Below the pieces are notes generated by a model. That model was not told where the DNA came from. It saw only the letters and a program-made list of their open reading frames with translations, and ran no database searches. Source: a virus. From it: a stretch of DNA of 20,371 nt. The DNA is taken from the IMG/VR virus record IMGVR_UViG_3300046804_001432, positions 1 to 20,371 of that record. The stretch is one strand, 5' to 3'. Shown piece after piece: positions 9,916-20,371 of the stretch (its first letter is position 1; each line of letters opens with the position of its first letter). A program made the translations under genes and the position numbers.

Positions 9916-11025
9916 TTACATTCCCTTCAGTATTGATGCGGAGTAGATGTTTCCCATACCCGCCGCCAAACTGAGAATCAGCCCCGGAGGGGGGCTTACC
10001 GATTCCGACAAGAAAACCATATCGGTTTCGGTTCGGTTTTCAATGGCAGGCACGACTCCTTTTTTTATGTCATCCAACAGCAAAAGGGTTTCCAAAAGAC
10101 CACTTGCGCCCATCGTGTGACCAATTTTTTGCTTGTACGAGGTGGCGACAAAGTCCTTCAAAGTGCCTTCCAGCGCCCGTTTTTCAGCCAAGTTGTTAGA
10201 TTGTGTCCCAGTTCCGTGTGTTTTGACAATAGAAACCTGCCCCGCAGACGCGCCAGAAACGCTCAGAGCGCCCTCGATGGCCTTGGTGAAGCCCTGACCA
10301 TCCTCGCACTGTCCAATCGCGTTTGTGGACGATTCTGACGCGCTGTATGCACCCAGCAACTCGGCATTGGGGTAGATTGACGACTTGGCAATGACTCGCT
10401 CGGAGTCAAAAACCGCAAATGCGGCCCCTTGCCCGACGTGAAAGCCGTAGTTTTTGCTGTCAAAAGCCGAGGGCAGGATGCCATCAGCCTCTTCCTTGGC
10501 GCTCAGGGTGGCCCGAGCCTCCCCAAAGAACTCCAGCACGGCGTTGGACACCCCATCTTCGACCGTCAGGACGATGACCCGGTCAAAGCCATAGAACTTG
10601 ATCAGGGTCTGCACGTCCATGAGCGCCTTCAAACTGCTGGCGCAGGCCGAGGAATCGGTCGTGATGTGGTCAGTCACCCCGCAGGCTTGGGCAATGCGCC
10701 CAGCGTAGACCTGCGTCAAGGTGAAGGGCAGGAACTTGTACTGGTAGGTCAGGCGGCTGTCGTAGGGGCGCTGGCTGATGCCTGCAAAGTGCGCATTGCC
10801 TGCGGCAAGGATGAAGGCCGTCTTGCCCACTGGGTTCTCGCGCAAGTGCTTGATCAACTCAGGGTCAAGGACTTTGTCGGCCACCTTGTGCGGGGCATAG
10901 AAAAGCCCGCTTTTGGCGCGGGCGTAGGTGTCGGGGAACCAGTTCACCCTTTGAGGGTAGACAATGTCGTCGAATAATTCGACGTTGGTTGTTGAGGCTG
11001 TTCGGTAGTGCGTCAGGTAGATCAT
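9916..11025 (-). CDS. Beta-ketoacyl-ACP synthase (KAS II/FabF-like ketosynthase)
   Basis: This 369-residue thiolase-fold enzyme has all condensing-enzyme landmarks: nucleophile Cys128 in TTDSSACASSLKAL, His270 in VKTHGTGTQSNN, Lys298 and His303 in YKQKIGHTMGASG, and a Gly-rich C-terminal AAGMGNIYSASIL in place of the usual FGG/N loop. The Cys-His-His set is that of decarboxylating, elongating KAS I/II enzymes, which condense malonyl-ACP with an acyl chain. It is somewhat shorter than bacterial FabF (~412), mostly at the N terminus. The start codon overlaps the upstream ACP stop (ATGA), with AAGGAG 8 bases upstream, so ACP and KS are translationally coupled. Malonyl transfer, reduction and ACP priming would have to come from the host. 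The product and biological role are unknown. Confidence 0.88.
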   Translation of the reverse strand: MIYLTHYRTASTTNVELFDDIVYPQRVNWFPDTYARAKSGLFYAPHKVADKVLDPELIKHLRENPVGKTAFILAAGNAHFAGISQRPYDSRLTYQYKFLPFTLTQVYAGRIAQACGVTDHITTDSSACASSLKALMDVQTLIKFYGFDRVIVLTVEDGVSNAVLEFFGEARATLSAKEEADGILPSAFDSKNYGFHVGQGAAFAVFDSERVIAKSSIYPNAELLGAYSASESSTNAIGQCEDGQGFTKAIEGALSVSGASAGQVSIVKTHGTGTQSNNLAEKRALEGTLKDFVATSYKQKIGHTMGASGLLETLLLLDDIKKGVVPAIENRTETDMVFLSESVSPPPGLILSLAAGMGNIYSASILKGM

Positions 11026-11309
11026 TTGATCTGCTCCTTCGCCTTCTCTAGCGACTCAGGCTCCTTGGTTTTGTTTGCCATCAGCAGGTCATAGACCTCT
11101 TGCACGGTCTCTGGATGCCAGCCCTTTGTCTCGTCGTTGTCTGGGATGCCATAGAGTTCACAGAGGTACATCATCATCACCAACCCGTCGAGGCTGTCCA
11201 GCCCCAAGTCTTCCATCTTTTGATCCATCGCCGAAGCGGGCGTGAAGGACATATGGATAGGCTTGGCGACATGAGCCACCATGTTGAACAGGTCGATAAA
11301 GTTGATCAT
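11022..11309 (-). CDS. Acyl carrier protein
   Basis: This 95-residue acidic protein contains the phosphopantetheine attachment motif LGLDSLDGLVMMMYLCELYGI (given here as LGLDSLDG plus helix II), with Ser39 as the predicted modified residue. A leading helix (FIDLFNMVAHVAKP) and a last helix (TVQEVYDLLMANK) match the ACP four-helix bundle. It is a little longer than E. coli AcpP (78) because of a Lys/Glu-rich C-terminal tail. It would carry the growing acyl chain for the ketosynthase encoded next, after activation by a holo-ACP synthase that I do not see here. It overlaps the 86-aa gene upstream by ATGA and the KS downstream by ATGA. ACP identity is firm; physiological role is unknown. Confidence 0.85.
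   Translation of the reverse strand: MINFIDLFNMVAHVAKPIHMSFTPASAMDQKMEDLGLDSLDGLVMMMYLCELYGIPDNDETKGWHPETVQEVYDLLMANKTKEPESLEKAKEQIK
11034..11039 (-). promoter_or_regulatory. Shine-Dalgarno for the ketosynthase
   Basis: AAGGAG on the minus strand lies inside the end of the ACP gene, 8 bases before the KS ATG at 11025. Together with the ATGA overlap it supports coupled, possibly near-equal, expression of ACP and KS. Confidence 0.6.
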
Positions 11310-11567: not shown

Positions 11568-13676
11568 TTAACTTCCAAACGGACGGGTATCGCCCAACTC
11601 GGCACTGAGAAGCACCTTGCCCATCTGGTAGTCACCACCAGCCTCATTGCTGATGAAGCGCAGACGCAATTCACGGCGCTGTTCGCGCATATCAATCTTG
11701 CCTGTGCCGGGTTCAAAGTAGTAGGGGTCGGAAATCACATCGTCGCTTTGAGCAAACGGACGGCCAACGATCTGCACGGACATCGTGCCCGACTGAACAA
11801 AATCAGGCTCGACGCGCTCCAAGCGCAACCAGCGGTTTTCGCCAACGCCGCCCTGCGGAATCTGCGGAGACTGCGAGGGGCCACCGCCAACCCAGCCAAG
11901 GTCGGATGTCTCGAACATGGACTCGACGGCATCGACGATGTCTCCAATGATCATGTCTGTGCCGATCTCGTGTTGCCAGATGGTGATCTTGCCGGGGATC
12001 GTGGTGAACGTCGCCGTCACAGTACCAGTGGCTGTTGCATTGACGTTCAGGCCAGTGTCTGGCGCAAACAGCGCAACGTCGTAGTACCCAGCGGTCGCGC
12101 TTGGTGCAATCGTTTTGATGACCGCGCCCACAGGAATGCCAGTTGCGACCACTTCAAGGTAAGTCCTGATGAGGTTGGTCACTGGAACCTTGATGACGTT
12201 GGAGCCATTGGTCGTGATGATCGAGGAACTGAACAAGTCTTCTGCAACAGTCTGCTCGGAGCCAGCGTTCACCGGGAATCGGAACACCTGAGAGAAGTAG
12301 CCAGCGGTGCGCTTGCAACCATTTGCAAAACCGCCGTCATACCAGCAGTTCTCGCGCACGTTGTAAATGATGACGTTGTTGCACTCTTCCGAATCGCCTT
12401 CGGGGTAGAACCACCAAATCTCGCCAAAGCGAGGAACCTTGGTCGCCCACACCTTCTGGCGTTGCGTGTAGTTCAAGTTGTCGAAGAAGTAGTTCTGGTT
12501 GAACGAGTTCGGCACTTCCTTGACCACGCCGTTGTACATCAAGAAGCGGTCAACGCCACACCAGTAGTAGATGCCGTCATACTCGATGACACCTTGGCTT
12601 GACAGGATCGAGGACTGGCTAGAAATGATGTCGTAGCGCCAGTAGAAGGTTTGAGGCGTGCCGCCCACCGTGATGGTCGTCGGGTTGTAGGACACGCGAA
12701 TGAGAGAGTCCAGCGACCAGAACAAGCCAGACGGCGCGTTCGAGCCACCGCGAACTGGCAAGCCTTTGACTACCTTGGTCGAGGCGACGTTGGTCTCGTT
12801 GGAATCTGGGCCGTTCCAGTCGTATGGGTCGCCAGCGACGGAGTTCTTGATCAAGCCGTTGTCGCCATACACAAAAACATACGGGTGCAAAACCACAACT
12901 CCGCCAGAGACGGAGATGACATCCCCGGTTGGAGATGTGCCGTTGGTGTCCTTCAAGGGCGCAAGTACCAGACCGTTGAGCGGGCCACCAAGCACGGCGG
13001 TGCTCACGGTGCTGTCAATCTGGGTGAGGTTGTGGCCGGGGTGAGCAAGCAAGAAGTTGTTGCCAGCACCAGAAGCATCGAACATGGAGTCAAACTGCCA
13101 AAGGTGGTTTGTGCTCGGAGTGAATAAGTCATCGACAGTTGAGACCACCACAGACCAGCCAGAACCCGTTCCGCCGATTGATGTGTTGGGGCAGGTGAGC
13201 ACATCGCCTGCGCAGTAGTAGTTGCCGTTGTTGGTGATCGTGACCGTGGTCACCACGTTGCCCGCCACCACAATCGTGGCAACTGCACCAGTCCCAGTGC
13301 CGCCAGTCAGCGCCACCCCGGTGTAGGTTCCATTGGTGTAGGCTGACCCGCCAGTGATTGTGCCAAGGGTCAGGATGTCGCCACCGAACTTCATCTCGTT
13401 CGTGCCAGCGCCGATGCCGTTGTTGTCGATGTCGATGACCTCAATGCCCTCGTCGTAGCCGTTGAAAATCTTGTTGATGCCGTCCTCGGAGTTCACATAG
13501 ATGCCGCGAGACAGGCCGTCGGCTGTCGTCGTGATGGCCTTGTAGCCGCCGACCTTACGAGGGCGACCACGCTGGAAACGAACCCATTTGCCATCCGTGT
13601 AAAAGTTTTTGTCGAAGTACGTCCCGTCCCGCTGAACGCCGGGTTGGGTGTCAATCGAAAAAACCTTTTTGGTCAT
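11568..13676 (-). CDS. Tail hub / stabilisation-type structural protein (702 aa)
   Basis: A conserved-looking N terminus (FSIDTQPGVQRDGT, YTDGKWVRFQRGRPRKVGGY) leads into a long beta-rich protein with many Trp/Tyr-Gly blades such as YWRYDIISSQ, GIYYWCGVDRF and WATKVPRFGEIWWFYPEGD. This suggests a beta-propeller like P22 gp10 or T7 gp12-type tail tube proteins. The N-terminal block is one I associate with podovirus tail proteins; the exact family is not proven. Residues ~101-181 look like an inserted small beta domain (see separate entry). It lies after the adaptor and the frameshifted structural gene, consistent with tail assembly. Its start overlaps the upstream stop by ATGA. Confidence 0.68.
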   Translation of the reverse strand: MTKKVFSIDTQPGVQRDGTYFDKNFYTDGKWVRFQRGRPRKVGGYKAITTTADGLSRGIYVNSEDGINKIFNGYDEGIEVIDIDNNGIGAGTNEMKFGGDILTLGTITGGSAYTNGTYTGVALTGGTGTGAVATIVVAGNVVTTVTITNNGNYYCAGDVLTCPNTSIGGTGSGWSVVVSTVDDLFTPSTNHLWQFDSMFDASGAGNNFLLAHPGHNLTQIDSTVSTAVLGGPLNGLVLAPLKDTNGTSPTGDVISVSGGVVVLHPYVFVYGDNGLIKNSVAGDPYDWNGPDSNETNVASTKVVKGLPVRGGSNAPSGLFWSLDSLIRVSYNPTTITVGGTPQTFYWRYDIISSQSSILSSQGVIEYDGIYYWCGVDRFLMYNGVVKEVPNSFNQNYFFDNLNYTQRQKVWATKVPRFGEIWWFYPEGDSEECNNVIIYNVRENCWYDGGFANGCKRTAGYFSQVFRFPVNAGSEQTVAEDLFSSSIITTNGSNVIKVPVTNLIRTYLEVVATGIPVGAVIKTIAPSATAGYYDVALFAPDTGLNVNATATGTVTATFTTIPGKITIWQHEIGTDMIIGDIVDAVESMFETSDLGWVGGGPSQSPQIPQGGVGENRWLRLERVEPDFVQSGTMSVQIVGRPFAQSDDVISDPYYFEPGTGKIDMREQRRELRLRFISNEAGGDYQMGKVLLSAELGDTRPFGS
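13134..13376 (-). other. Inserted YTNGTY-type beta domain within the tail protein
   Basis: Residues ~101-181 of the 702-aa protein contain SAYTNGTYTGVALTGGTGTG, then AVATIVVAGNVVTTVTITNNG, YYCAGDVLTC and IGGTGSGWSVVV. I know this pattern as a small beta domain that turns up in unrelated phage tail and fibre proteins. It interrupts the flanking MKFGGD and WQFDSMF context. Boundaries are approximate. Confidence 0.5.
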
Positions 13677-14518
13677 GTGAACGTACCCCCAGAGATGCCC
13701 CCGGTGAATGTGCCAGTCCCGTTGATGGTCAGGCCAGTTGCAGACAGCGTGAATAGGTTGTTGCCCAAGATGGCGATGTTGAACTGACCAGAGGCGGCGT
13801 GGTACACGCCCGTGGTCGGCTCAGTGCCGAAGTACAGCGCGGGGCTGGAAACTGAGCCGTCAACCAAACCAATGGCGGTCGCGCCAGCCAGCACGGTGTT
13901 GGCGTTCACGAGATTGACCGAGTCGCAAATCAAGGTGGCTTGCTGGTTCGAGCCAATCGTCGCGGCAGAGCCACCCGTGTTGGTGGTCACCGTGACGGTG
14001 TAGTTCGACACCCCGCCGTTCGTGGCGTTTTGAATGTAGTACACCTGAACCGTCTGCGGCACGATGATGGTCACGTTGCCAGTGAGCACGCCCGTGTACT
14101 TCTGGATCACGTTTGCGGCCTCAGCGGCGGTCAGCGTGTAGGTTCCAGAGGTCACCGCCTTGGTCAACTGCGTGAAGTTGAACTGGGTGTTTTTGCCCAA
14201 GCCCACGGTGTAGAACACAGCGCCAGAGCAAACAATGATGCAGGAGTCAGCGGGCTGAAGCGTGAGAGTGGACGAGCCGTTGATCACGTCTCCGCCAGTG
14301 CAACCCACAGTCAGCGTGCCCGTACCACCGTTGCGCACGAACATGAACCAGTTGTCGCCGAGCGTGGTGACCGAGTCCAGAGTCATCGTGCCCGCGCCGC
14401 CAGTCCACACATAAGTGCTGGAGCGGTCGGTCGTGGTCACCGTGGCATTCGAGGAGAAGGTCGTGACAGGCTGCAAGGGTCGCCGCATCAGCGCCAGAGG
14501 AGCCAATGCCAAAAGCAA
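13673..14518 (-). CDS. Structural protein, C-terminal part after frameshift
   Basis: The frame is open from 14518 to TGA 13673-13675. Genuine-looking sequence begins about residue 15 (LQPVTTFSSNATVTTTDRSS); the preceding MLLALAPLALMRR is the out-of-phase reading of the upstream half. The protein is Thr/Asn/Gly-rich and beta-rich, with segments STYVWTGGAGTMTLDS, NTQFNFTQLTKAVTSGTYTL and a final SPALYFGTEPTTGVYHAASG block ending in GTFTGGISGG. I recall these from phage structural (fibre/appendage) proteins in which they follow the adjacent N-terminal part in one frame. It is therefore listed as the second half of a split gene at 13673-14870 (~398 aa if joined). The stop overlaps the 702-aa start (ATGA). 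Confidence 0.6.
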   Translation of the reverse strand: MLLALAPLALMRRPLQPVTTFSSNATVTTTDRSSTYVWTGGAGTMTLDSVTTLGDNWFMFVRNGGTGTLTVGCTGGDVINGSSTLTLQPADSCIIVCSGAVFYTVGLGKNTQFNFTQLTKAVTSGTYTLTAAEAANVIQKYTGVLTGNVTIIVPQTVQVYYIQNATNGGVSNYTVTVTTNTGGSAATIGSNQQATLICDSVNLVNANTVLAGATAIGLVDGSVSSPALYFGTEPTTGVYHAASGQFNIAILGNNLFTLSATGLTINGTGTFTGGISGGTFT

Positions 14519-14870
14519 TGATGCCCCATGTGCCCGAGGTGTCCGGGTTGGCGGTGATGTAGATGTAGCGGGCCTCCCCAGCGGGGATGGTCACAATCGT
14601 GTGAGCGCCAGCGTAATCCTTGACCGTGAACGGGTTGACACCGATGTTGCGGATCATCGCGTCTTGACCCACCGATGCCTGATTGGCGGGCGGCATCCAC
14701 AACTCAGCGTTGTTGGTGGCCGTCACCTCCATGATGCGGGCGGCTGAATCGTTGGTGGTCGAGCCGTTGATGGGCCACGTCAACTGCAAGGTCGACGACA
14801 GCGTGATGGAACGGTACGAAACGTCGGTTGGTTGAACGACGTTACCTGTGAAGGGGCTATTGAAACTCAT
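14247..14870 (-). CDS. Structural protein, N-terminal part before frameshift
   Basis: The sequence is good up to about residue 133 (MSFNSPFTGNVVQPTDVSYR, WPINGSTTNDSAARIMEVTA, WMPPANQASVGQDAMIRN, FGIGSSGADAATL). After that the frame turns into His/Arg/Cys-rich nonsense (CHDLLLECHGDHDRPLQ) to the stop at 14247, while the neighbouring frame continues the structural protein. The start overlaps the adaptor stop (TAATG). The beta-rich N-terminal part resembles phage virion appendage proteins whose exact job I do not know. Either the gene is broken, the sequence has an error, or a +1 shift joins the halves. A truncated 207-aa product is unlikely to be the intended protein. Confidence 0.6.
   Translation of the reverse strand: MSFNSPFTGNVVQPTDVSYRSITLSSTLQLTWPINGSTTNDSAARIMEVTATNNAELWMPPANQASVGQDAMIRNIGVNPFTVKDYAGAHTIVTIPAGEARYIYITANPDTSGTWGIIAFGIGSSGADAATLAACHDLLLECHGDHDRPLQHLCVDWRRGHDDSGLGHHARRQLVHVRAQRWYGHADCGLHWRRRDQRLVHSHASAR
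14471..14482 (-). other. Frameshift site in structural gene
   Basis: On the minus strand the sequence reads GCG ACC CTT GCA GCC TGT in the N-terminal frame. The downstream protein continues as CAG CCT GTC ACG, one base later. Removing one base of CTT would give ACC CTG CAG CCT (TLQPV) and a continuous protein. A loss of 3n+2 bases relative to relatives would have the same effect. I cannot separate mutation, assembly error and programmed +1 frameshifting by sight. Confidence 0.6.
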
Positions 14871-15505: not shown

Positions 15506-15514
15506 TTGTTCTCC

Positions 15515-16935: not shown

Positions 16936-17412
16936 TTAAGGGGTTGAAGTAGTTGCCGTGTCAGCAGGAACGTCTGCTGGCGCGTCAATGATAACTTCAG
17001 GCGCGGGAGCCGTCACCTCTTCAACCACAGAAGGTTCAACTTGGGCTTCAACAACAGGCTCAGGGATTGGGCGCAGTTCGCCACGATCCCATGAGGTGGT
17101 CTCTTGGTTCCAAGTGTAGAAATACTCGTCCACAGGCATGGGCACGGGCGGCTCCCACAGCCAAGTGGAAGTGTTCAGCACCCAGTTCTCAAAAGGCTTG
17201 GGCGCGATGAACACATCGTTCACCTCGTCGTAGGTGTAGCCGATGCCAGCATAGTTGCCACGCAGGGGGCGACCCTGTGGGTGCTGGTTGCCACGGGTGT
17301 TGTAACTGGTTTGAACCCAGCCATGACCCACAGCGCCGCTGTCGATGAAGTCTTGCTCGGCGACGATCACTTGAGTGACGATGCCGTTCTCGACTTTTGC
17401 AAAATGACTCAT
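16936..17412 (-). CDS. Fibre-associated phage protein of unknown role (158 aa)
   Basis: The N-terminal ~115 residues (MSHFAKVENGIVTQVIVAEQ, WVQTSYNTRGNQHPQGRPLR, GNYAGIGYTYDEVNDVFIAP, FENWVLNTSTWLWEPPVPMP, YTWNQETTSWDR) form a Trp/Tyr-rich beta protein. I recognise it as widespread in marine and freshwater phages near tail-fibre genes; its biochemical role is not known to me. The last ~40 residues are a Pro/Glu/Val/Ala/Thr-rich, probably disordered tail. The ATG has AAGGAG upstream and follows the fibre stop by 9 bases. It may be a fibre subunit or assembly factor. Confidence 0.7.
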   Translation of the reverse strand: MSHFAKVENGIVTQVIVAEQDFIDSGAVGHGWVQTSYNTRGNQHPQGRPLRGNYAGIGYTYDEVNDVFIAPKPFENWVLNTSTWLWEPPVPMPVDEYFYTWNQETTSWDRGELRPIPEPVVEAQVEPSVVEEVTAPAPEVIIDAPADVPADTATTSTP

Positions 17413-17421
17413 GTGTTCTCC

Positions 17422-18465
17422 TTATCGTGCGTTTGCGTATTTAAATGGATTTTCAGCGAAGGCGGCGTAAATATACGTTCCACCAACACCATAGTTGATG
17501 CCGTCACCTGCGGTTCTGATTTTGAATCCATTGGACAAGATGTCCATGTTATTTCCAGTTCCTTCAGAGCCAGAACTGTTTGGCAACAATGATGCGGCAG
17601 TTTGGTTGTAAGTACTTCTTCCCGTGTCATCAATCACCCATTCTTGAGCAGAATCAGTGCGCTTGATCAAAATGAATCGGGGCCGAAATCCTAGGTAAAT
17701 AAATGGGCCGTCTGCGTTTTGATTAGAGGTGTAAGACCCAAAGGCAGAGTAGCCGGGGACTGCGGCCCAGCAGTAAGCGACCATCGCGTTTGTGCTTCCG
17801 TTGCTTGACAAGTTTGTGCCAAGGCTAAAAACCGTTGAAGTCGGTGCAGTGCTATTCCAAACAGTTGGAAAACTTCCTTGAGCATTCGTGTTATCTAGAA
17901 ACAAAGAATAAGCGGCTGACGTTAAAGATGAGTGATAAACACACCAGTTGGTCGAGCCTGTGCTTCTGTTTTTCACAATGACCATGCTTGGCGCAACGCC
18001 AAGACCATGACCAACGGTGGCATTCGCTCCAGTGCCCGTGTAGGTCACCACGCTGAATCCAGCAGTCGTGTTGACGCTCACAGTAGATGTAATGGAGCCA
18101 GAAGTGTTGGAGGATGTGCTTCCCTGACCAGCCTGCCATTGCCAGCCGACATAGGTCGTGCCGTTGGCGTTGAAAGAAACTCCGGCGTCTGTGGTTAAGG
18201 AGAAGCCATTTGAGTTGAACGCAGTAAGCGATCCGTCAGTACCTTCTCCACCAGTGCTGTTAGAAATCAAATATCGATTAACGCCCCTCACGCTATCTTG
18301 AAGGACGTTGTTTGAAGATTGACTGCGACCCTTAATCCAAACCAAATCTGGCTTCATTGAAACGCCATTGACAGTGTTTGCAACCGTCTGGGTACTGCCA
18401 TTCCCTGTGTAAGTCGTCGCCGCCATCACAGTGCGACCATCAGGAATTGCGTAGGTTGTAGGCAT
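17422..18465 (-). CDS. Tail-fibre C-terminal-type protein (DUF7483-like, 347 aa)
   Basis: The sequence begins MPTTYAIPDGRTVMAATTYT and has KPDLVWIKGRS, NRYLISNSTGG, TTYVGWQWQAG, VVTYTGTGANATVGHGLGVA, PSMVIVKNRS, YCWAAVPGYSAFGSYTSN, GPFIYLGFRPRFILIKRTD and YIYAAFAENPFKYANAR. This is the pattern of the C-terminal part of LamG-type phage fibre proteins (annotated DUF7483, from memory), a beta-rich surface protein. In relatives I remember, it is fused to a preceding LamG part. Here it lies in the same frame as the upstream gene, separated by TAA and three codons, with AAGGAA before its own ATG. It probably forms part of the host-recognition fibre. Confidence 0.75.
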   Translation of the reverse strand: MPTTYAIPDGRTVMAATTYTGNGSTQTVANTVNGVSMKPDLVWIKGRSQSSNNVLQDSVRGVNRYLISNSTGGEGTDGSLTAFNSNGFSLTTDAGVSFNANGTTYVGWQWQAGQGSTSSNTSGSITSTVSVNTTAGFSVVTYTGTGANATVGHGLGVAPSMVIVKNRSTGSTNWCVYHSSLTSAAYSLFLDNTNAQGSFPTVWNSTAPTSTVFSLGTNLSSNGSTNAMVAYCWAAVPGYSAFGSYTSNQNADGPFIYLGFRPRFILIKRTDSAQEWVIDDTGRSTYNQTAASLLPNSSGSEGTGNNMDILSNGFKIRTAGDGINYGVGGTYIYAAFAENPFKYANAR

Positions 18466-18477
18466 GGGGGTTCCTTA
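18466..18477 (-). other. In-frame stop and short spacer splitting the fibre gene
   Basis: On the minus strand the fibre frame reads AAC CTG TAA GGA ACC CCC ATG CCT. The TAA at 18477-18475 is followed, without a change of frame, by three codons and the ATG of the 347-aa protein. AAGGAA around the stop can serve as ribosome site. This is either a gene split or a read-through point. Confidence 0.7.
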
Positions 18478-20371
18478 CAGGTTGAACGTGTTCAGGGCAA
18501 CGTAGCCACTGGGCGGGGTGTACTTGAACGGTTGCTGGCCGCAATTTAACGATGCCTGATATGCAACACCAGCATGGTCAAATGTTGGAGTCAAGGGCTG
18601 GTTTGCCAAGGTAAACGTGTAGACAGGGTTTGCTCCAGTAGATGGGTTTCCAGTAGAACCACCAGAAGCATCACACCATGAATTGTTTTTACCGACCCAG
18701 ACTTTCCCTGATGTTGCGTCATAAGCAAATTGCAAAATATCACCAATAGCAATTGAAGTGATGTTGCAGTTCACCTGTGTTACCAAAGACCCGTTGTTGT
18801 AAATGTTGACAGAATGTCCTGAACCGCCATCGCAATAAAGCAACGCCGTTCTTTGCGGGGCTGAATGACTTGGAGCCCCCACCAAACTTGCCCAACCATA
18901 AATGATTGGATTTGATGGATTTACAGTGGTCTGTTGCGTTATTTCAAAATAGAACTTACCTGAGTTGTCCGCAGCACCAATCGTGCTCCTGAAAACACCG
19001 CTGGCGCCGCTAGTGTAATAAAGGTTCCCTTGCGAAACGGTTCCTGAACCAACATAGTCCAAAGGATTGATGACGCAATAGTTTGCCACAGTTGCACTGG
19101 TCAACGTGGGAACGTCAGTCATGTAGTCCAGAGTCGTGCCAAACGCACCAGACACGTTGTTGGGTGTCCAGTTGTTGCCTGCTGGGCCTTGATCGTTGAA
19201 GATGCCATAGGCAAACGGGTAGGTCTGACCAGTAGACACACCGTTGTTGTTGGTGATGGAGTATGCGTTTGTGCTGTTGTCAACAATCGAACTGTTCTGC
19301 AAAGTCAAGAAAACAGTGTTTGCATCATTGCTGAATGATGATGTCGGAGCAGTTGCAGGCGAAATTGTTCGCACGACATTCGACACCCTCAAGTTGGAAA
19401 TGTACCCACCAAAGTAGGTGCTAGTCCAATCAAGACCAATCCAGAAAGGTGTTGTTTGAACTGCGGCACTCAACGTGCCAGAGCCAGCGGCCAAGCCATT
19501 CACATAAAAGGTCGCTGTTGATCCAGTCCTTGTCAGGGCGATGTAGTACCACTGGTTGTTGTTGATTGCAACAGTAGATGAAAAACTACTTGCGCCAATT
19601 TGAACACCAAGAGTTGTACCAACAACCGTTACCTCAAGGCGGCCAGCGTTACCTGTAGTTCCTTGCGAATAAATGGTTGCGTTGGTGTTGGTTTTATAAA
19701 TCATCGCCTCAACAGTGAAGTCGCCTGTTGCAGGAATGATTTGCGTGTTGGTGGTCGCAAGGTATTGATTGCTTCCATTGAATGACCCAACATAACTGGA
19801 CGTTTTGGCATTGAACGGCAGGTAGAACCCGTTCGCGCCATACGAACCACCATAGGTGATGGGTTGCCATACACCGTAGGAGTTGAATGTGCCGAAACTG
19901 CTGGGGGTCAGGGCTTGACCATCAACGAAGTTGACCTCAGTGAGATAGCCATCCCAGTAATTGCCGCCACCATTCCAGAACCGACCGATGTTGACGGTTG
20001 ACGATGCGGCGTTGAGACCGCAAGTGGTGATTGCGCTCGTCGATGCCCAAGAAACAGGAACGCCATTGATCCACGCCAGCAACTTGTTGGCTTCTGTGCT
20101 TTGAGTCGTGTCCACGGCAAGAGTCAAGTGATACCACGCCGCAGGGTCACGATAGACCGCATTACTGGAGCGGAAAGTGGAGGCGTTGCCCACCAAAAGG
20201 AACGTCCCGCTGTTGAACACAACATCAAATGTCGCGGTGTCTGATGCGGCAGTTCCACCGCTAAGAAGGCGCAAGTTTGAACCAAGCGCACCGATCTTCA
20301 TCCATGCGCTAAAAGTCCACTTGGCTTGATTGGTCGGAGTCCCAAATGTTCTGTTCAAGTAGGCTGAGTTG
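18475..20371 (-). CDS. LamG-domain tail-fibre protein (partial, N terminus missing)
   Basis: The frame is open through the right edge (NSAYLNRTFGTPTNQAKWTF); a TTG at 20358 is not a convincing start because NSAYLNRTF is the conserved beginning of such LamG domains. The first LamG/concanavalin-like domain spans ~1-180 (numbered from 20358), with WTFSAWMK, WYHLTLAVDTT, GRFWNGGGNYWDGYLTEVNF and NGFYLPF. A second LamG-like domain (~185-355) has FTVEAMIYKTNT, WYYIALTRTGSTATFYVNG and FGGYISNLRVSN. The last ~230 residues, from GNNWTPNNVSG through a SPRY-like FYFEITQQTT part, end in GQQPFKYTPPSGYVALNTFN. Such proteins bind host surface glycans. The DNA here looks more A/T-rich than the rest of the window. 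Confidence 0.75.
   Translation of the reverse strand, partial: NSAYLNRTFGTPTNQAKWTFSAWMKIGALGSNLRLLSGGTAASDTATFDVVFNSGTFLLVGNASTFRSSNAVYRDPAAWYHLTLAVDTTQSTEANKLLAWINGVPVSWASTSAITTCGLNAASSTVNIGRFWNGGGNYWDGYLTEVNFVDGQALTPSSFGTFNSYGVWQPITYGGSYGANGFYLPFNAKTSSYVGSFNGSNQYLATTNTQIIPATGDFTVEAMIYKTNTNATIYSQGTTGNAGRLEVTVVGTTLGVQIGASSFSSTVAINNNQWYYIALTRTGSTATFYVNGLAAGSGTLSAAVQTTPFWIGLDWTSTYFGGYISNLRVSNVVRTISPATAPTSSFSNDANTVFLTLQNSSIVDNSTNAYSITNNNGVSTGQTYPFAYGIFNDQGPAGNNWTPNNVSGAFGTTLDYMTDVPTLTSATVANYCVINPLDYVGSGTVSQGNLYYTSGASGVFRSTIGAADNSGKFYFEITQQTTVNPSNPIIYGWASLVGAPSHSAPQRTALLYCDGGSGHSVNIYNNGSLVTQVNCNITSIAIGDILQFAYDATSGKVWVGKNNSWCDASGGSTGNPSTGANPVYTFTLANQPLTPTFDHAGVAYQASLNCGQQPFKYTPPSGYVALNTFNL

Follow-up and report, generated by a model that had tools for sequence, protein, structure and literature searches.

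A Stop Codon Within a Ribosome-Binding Site: The Probable Boundary Between Two Fibre Genes in a Phage with One-Gene and Two-Gene Relatives

Introduction

The tail fibre of T5-like phages is made of one or two proteins, depending on the member. T5 has a single Ltf, DT57C and DT571/2 have LtfA and LtfB instead, and deletions can fuse the genes (PMC4728585). LtfB has been proposed to be a branch with its own receptor; LtfA keeps one too (PMC4728585). The likeness of these fibres to the locus discussed here would be a functional one only. In lambda PaPa, stf is split into orf-401 and orf-314 by a frameshift lesion of the laboratory strain (PMC9997739). As in our locus, two open reading frames are found where relatives have one. 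Unlike that lesion, however, the boundary described below is common to many phages and has its own ribosome-binding site.

Pelagiphages encode pairs of a lectin/SPRY and a DUF7483-type protein in adjacent genes whose stop and start all but touch (gp42/gp43 of HTVC031P, gp36/gp37 of HTVC011P). In these two phages the second gene is not in the frame of the first. All eight cultured pelagiphages examined show the split and are annotated with two genes, which in five of them overlap by one base. Their first protein ends with PTGYTALSTKGLNL; their second one matches our P2 (see below) with 45–52% identity. It starts, however, with MAYTTI.K instead of MPTTYAIPDG, and the junctions are mostly one-base overlaps (TAATG) or gaps of 1 nt, as opposed to 9 nt in our case. 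Fused LamG/SPRY-DUF7483 proteins (phrog_19943; gp16 of Methylophilales phage MEP301, gp24 of Roseobacter phage CRP-406) have the same parts in the same order, but form one chain, and the junction contains neither a stop nor a Shine-Dalgarno sequence. Our literature search found no paper naming DUF7483 and none that combines gene fission with tail fiber.

We here analyse a stretch of 20,371 nucleotides, positions 1–20,371 of the virus record IMGVR_UViG_3300046804_001432, henceforth called the window. A preliminary description had noticed an in-frame stop codon in what looked like a fibre gene.

The Locus and Its Junction

The first protein, P1, is encoded at 18475–20370 on the minus strand. Its 631 codons are open at the contig end, and the start codon lies just past it. 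P1 is a fibre or adhesion protein with LamG (concanavalin-like) domains (Pfam PF13385, E 4e-24). At the contig end it reads NSAYLNRTFG, while gp42 of HTVC031P starts with MANTYLTRTFG; judged by the latter, P1 is probably missing just its first few residues. Its C-terminal part ends with QPFKYTPPSGYVALNTFNL, that is ...VALNTFNL followed by TAA at 18475–18477. The three sense codons GGA ACC CCC (18466–18474) separate this stop from the ATG of P2 (18463–18465), which lies in the frame of P1, 9 nt past the TAA. The in-frame TAA between the LamG part and the next ATG is thus real; it is read directly in the window sequence.

P2 (17422–18465, minus strand) is a stand-alone DUF7483 protein of 347 residues. 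Its match to PF24299 (E 6e-118, 394 bits with a cut-off of 27) covers model positions 7–330 of 330, and it further matches phrog_24898 (tail fiber protein) and phrog_19943. To the latter family, 1227 positions long, P1 aligns at 458–840 and P2 at 895–1227, the order being the same. Most relatives are a single continuous chain; in the window the TAA separates the parts. P2 seems to contain three similar segments with the pattern YTG.G...GF.P...IK, of which the first matches the second in short local matches in relatives such as L117.

The junction TAA GGA ACC CCC ATG (18463–18477, minus strand) combines the stop of P1 with the Shine-Dalgarno sequence of P2, AAGGA, six bases before the ATG. P2 thus has a start of its own, as the second member of a bicistronic pair should have. 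The energy of pairing with the anti-Shine-Dalgarno sequence is −6.1 kcal/mol in the window, the median is −6.2 in split loci, and +0.4 is obtained at the matching place in fused ones. In all of 42 contigs the codon preceding GGA-N6-ATG is TAA, although the pattern had left the stop codon free. TAA is invariant here because TAAGGA is stop and Shine-Dalgarno sequence at once. The same in-frame layout with 9 nt recurs in the window between P2 and the next gene, g158 (17413–17421), and between g113 and g211 (15506–15514). TAAGGA-N6-ATG is a recurrent junction style of this phage. The gene g158 (16936–17412, minus strand; phrog_7759) has its TAAGGAG overlapping the stop of P2. No strong Shine-Dalgarno sequence is present in a subgroup of relatives that have TAAGACTATG or TAATCATG; initiation there must therefore work otherwise, and may rely on reinitiation.

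RNA structure was not detected at the junction: the 81 nt around it fold worse than shuffled sequences (z +1.31). Scans for promoters and terminators near the junction yielded the same counts as in shuffles.

AlphaFold2 models P2 alone with a pLDDT of 92.6; the first ten residues, a linker, are less certain. The split therefore sits at a linker that precedes a self-contained unit. Foldseek found no match of the model in the PDB at E ≤ 0.001. The best VIA-align row is gp53, the tail fibre of phage AP22, with a Z of 6.1 over 82 residues. This Z is within the range of common arrangements, and P2 was therefore given no fold. The strong matches in a viral structure library are other phage proteins, one of them named DUF7483.

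Two more observations concern the surroundings. At 13673–14870 (minus strand), open reading frames of 207 and 281 residues lie in differing frames, the change being near 14510; in L055, L101, L169, L177, L178, L181 and L208 these parts share one frame. The frame change appears to be a 1-nt indel, due to mutation or assembly error. Among the virion genes there is a beta-ketoacyl synthase gene (9916–11309, minus strand; PF00109/PF02801), and the phage record MW202545.1 holds a synthase 65% identical to it. In the window, the synthase gene is preceded by a small one that is acyl-carrier-like and encodes a DSLD motif (PF00550, E 0.049, below the cut-off).

Fused and Split Relatives

The preliminary description had stated that fibre relatives are continuous at this point. 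This proved correct. P1 and P2 correspond to consecutive stretches of phrog_19943, and each of the 80 viral relatives nearest to P2 is open through the junction point, via NTFNL-PTPTI... or similar; for one of them, L055, the contig ends 7 codons upstream. When loci were fetched through P1, 58 of the 72 that reach its C-terminus continue and 14 stop. A search of genome contigs yielded one relative, a fused one.

Searching with the N-terminus of P2, in turn, revealed about 55 split loci. In these, the last residues of P1 are NL, NM or NI, and the N-terminus of P2 reads MPTTYAIPDG, MPTTYAIPNG, MATTFAVPDG or near variants. The gaps between stop and ATG amount to 2, 3, 4, 8, 9, 10 or 11 nt in this sample and to 2, 4, 9 or 12 nt in the split loci fetched through P1. 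Independent genes in differing frames had been named in the preliminary description as a finding that would refute its reading, and that is what we see: in the 44 split loci that were measured, one of them being the window, frames 0, 1 and 2 are used by 17, 18 and 9 second genes, respectively (15, 16 and 7 once near-copies are dropped). The relative frame of P1 and P2 is thus not kept among split relatives, as is typical of bicistronic pairs. Nor is the downstream frame kept as a continuation of the upstream one, as read-through would demand, be it in the 44 split loci or in those fetched through P1. By this comparison, the in-frame relation seen in the window is no more than chance level.

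In L188, L189, L211 and L237, a P1-like protein is followed by a different C-terminal stretch of about 86 codons without a match to P2. L231 has a P1-like protein, a stop, TAAGGAACAATC and then an ATG opening a gene that equally lacks a P2 match. These five appear to carry different tips on a stem of this kind.

Which Reading Fits the Junction?

P1 and P2 are very probably separate genes of one operon, with P2 initiated on its own and the fibre made of two chains. We observe two open frames with a Shine-Dalgarno sequence over the stop, split relatives in three frames, fused relatives and states that interleave on a tree (see below). Translation of P1 would end at the TAA, and the same bases (TAAGGA) would serve as the Shine-Dalgarno sequence of P2. 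Since the stop bases double in this way, P2 would be initiated on its own, probably in coupling with the end of P1 translation. The two chains, LamG and DUF7483, would be made separately; they are probably parts of the same adhesion device and may assemble together in the virion.

The preliminary description had offered a choice: the phage may make two chains from one ancestral fibre, or short fibres mixed with read-through ones, which would allow alternative tips. The former idea is supported in so far as two chains stand where other phages have one fibre protein: fused homologues exist and the split is at the matching point. The latter is not supported. Read-through of the TAA, be it programmed or leaky, with short P1 and long P1-P2 fibres as products, could invoke two facts: P2 shares the frame of P1, both in the window and throughout the TAAGGA-N6-ATG subgroup, and a long chain is viable, as the fused homologues show. 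Yet the second gene of split relatives is in the other two frames as often as not. Read-through could therefore not fuse the chains in most of them, and a boundary found in all three frames makes read-through into one long protein very unlikely. Moreover, the TAA is never replaced by another stop or a sense codon in the 42 contigs, as is expected of a part of a Shine-Dalgarno sequence, the junction is devoid of RNA structure, and the same layout is seen at two unrelated junctions of the window. On account of the frames, the invariant TAA inside the Shine-Dalgarno sequence and the absent RNA structure we reject read-through as highly improbable, although at a low level it may occur in in-frame split members. 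Still less credible, if anything, is that the TAA arose by recent mutation, or by an error of assembly, within a gene that is otherwise fused. The nearest P2 body is indeed a fused one (L001, 72% identity), and the window seems to carry a 1-nt indel elsewhere, near 14510. But the layout of stop, Shine-Dalgarno sequence and ATG and the start MPTTYAIPDG are common to dozens of independent contigs, and cultured pelagiphages are annotated with the split arrangement. A junction common to so many contigs led us to reject this possibility, too.

A further alternative is historical and compatible with a boundary between two genes: the fused phages might have joined two ancestral genes, instead of one gene having been split. 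The tree has no outgroup root and the states interleave, which leaves room for this direction; deletion of a short spacer would join the genes, as with ltfA/ltfB in phage DT530(1) (PMC4728585). However, most of the deepest rows of the midpoint-rooted tree are fused (Synechococcus phages, CRP-406, C72C1, SS120-1, MEP301), and the split genes L172–L174 start with MTTPTIPAGNLY or MSTPTIPAGNLY, in agreement with NLPTPTI.NGN.YM, the linker of the fused forms. We therefore regard fusion as the less likely direction.

Apparent Mosaicism Around the Junction

A tree was built from the DUF7483 body, the first 14 residues being excluded; it is a quick tree with many weak branches. Split and fused rows interleave in it, and the well-supported branches force at least four changes of state for the main split group. 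The split of the pelagiphages is one group (support 96). The P2 body of the window pairs with the fused L001 (72% identity, support 96). The first 48 nt of window P2, in contrast, reach an identity of 92% with split loci the bodies of which are 54–60% identical. The sites shared with split loci cluster between about −39 and +54 relative to the ATG, and in some comparisons extend beyond this range, whereas those shared with L001 dominate the body; in a permutation test this clustering reaches the test floor (p 0.0005). The junction block so defined (18412–18504, minus strand) comprises about 39 nt of P1, the spacer and the first 54 nt of P2.

Third-base identity in shared four-fold codons of split genes is 0.87 in codons 1–8, 0.73 in codons 9–16 and about 0.4 in the body. 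Protein conservation of the 5′ block is partly ascertained, since N-terminal peptides served to find the main sample of split loci. The synonymous conservation, though weaker, persists in the sample found through P1, where the corresponding values are 0.65, 0.50 and about 0.38. A constraint from translation initiation may explain part of it. Together with the mosaic look of P2 in the window, the synonymous conservation suggests a module boundary at which bodies are exchanged. Going one step further, the block of about 90 nt might be the exchange site itself, where DUF7483 tips are swapped by recombination and the fibre moves between one chain and two; we offer this tentatively, as a possibility that falls somewhat short of an even chance.

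Phages with similar structural genes may differ in the state of the fibre: judged by g211, L055 and L145 are about equally close to the window (82% and 83% identity), yet the former appears fused and the latter is split. The gene g158 lies downstream of a split P2 in 20 of 44 loci, as compared to 3 of 69 for a fused P2. One contig, L124, holds a DUF7483 gene of either kind, one split and one fused; the two forms can therefore coexist in one phage.

Taken at face value, these comparisons indicate that the group has switched between one gene and two several times, probably by recombination around the conserved junction. The one-gene and two-gene arrangements would then be interchangeable states of a modular fibre.

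Conclusions

The junction in the window appears to be an ordinary boundary of a two-gene operon, placed at an interdomain linker. Its role as a module boundary is interesting but unproven. The in-frame stop is settled as a gene boundary and is not a case of recoding. One and the same adhesion module is encoded by one gene or by two among related phages, which calls for caution in the automatic annotation of fibres. Phages with one gene and those with two offer a natural comparison for the role of the covalent linkage between fibre and tip, and thanks to the conserved junction block module exchange can be put to the test.
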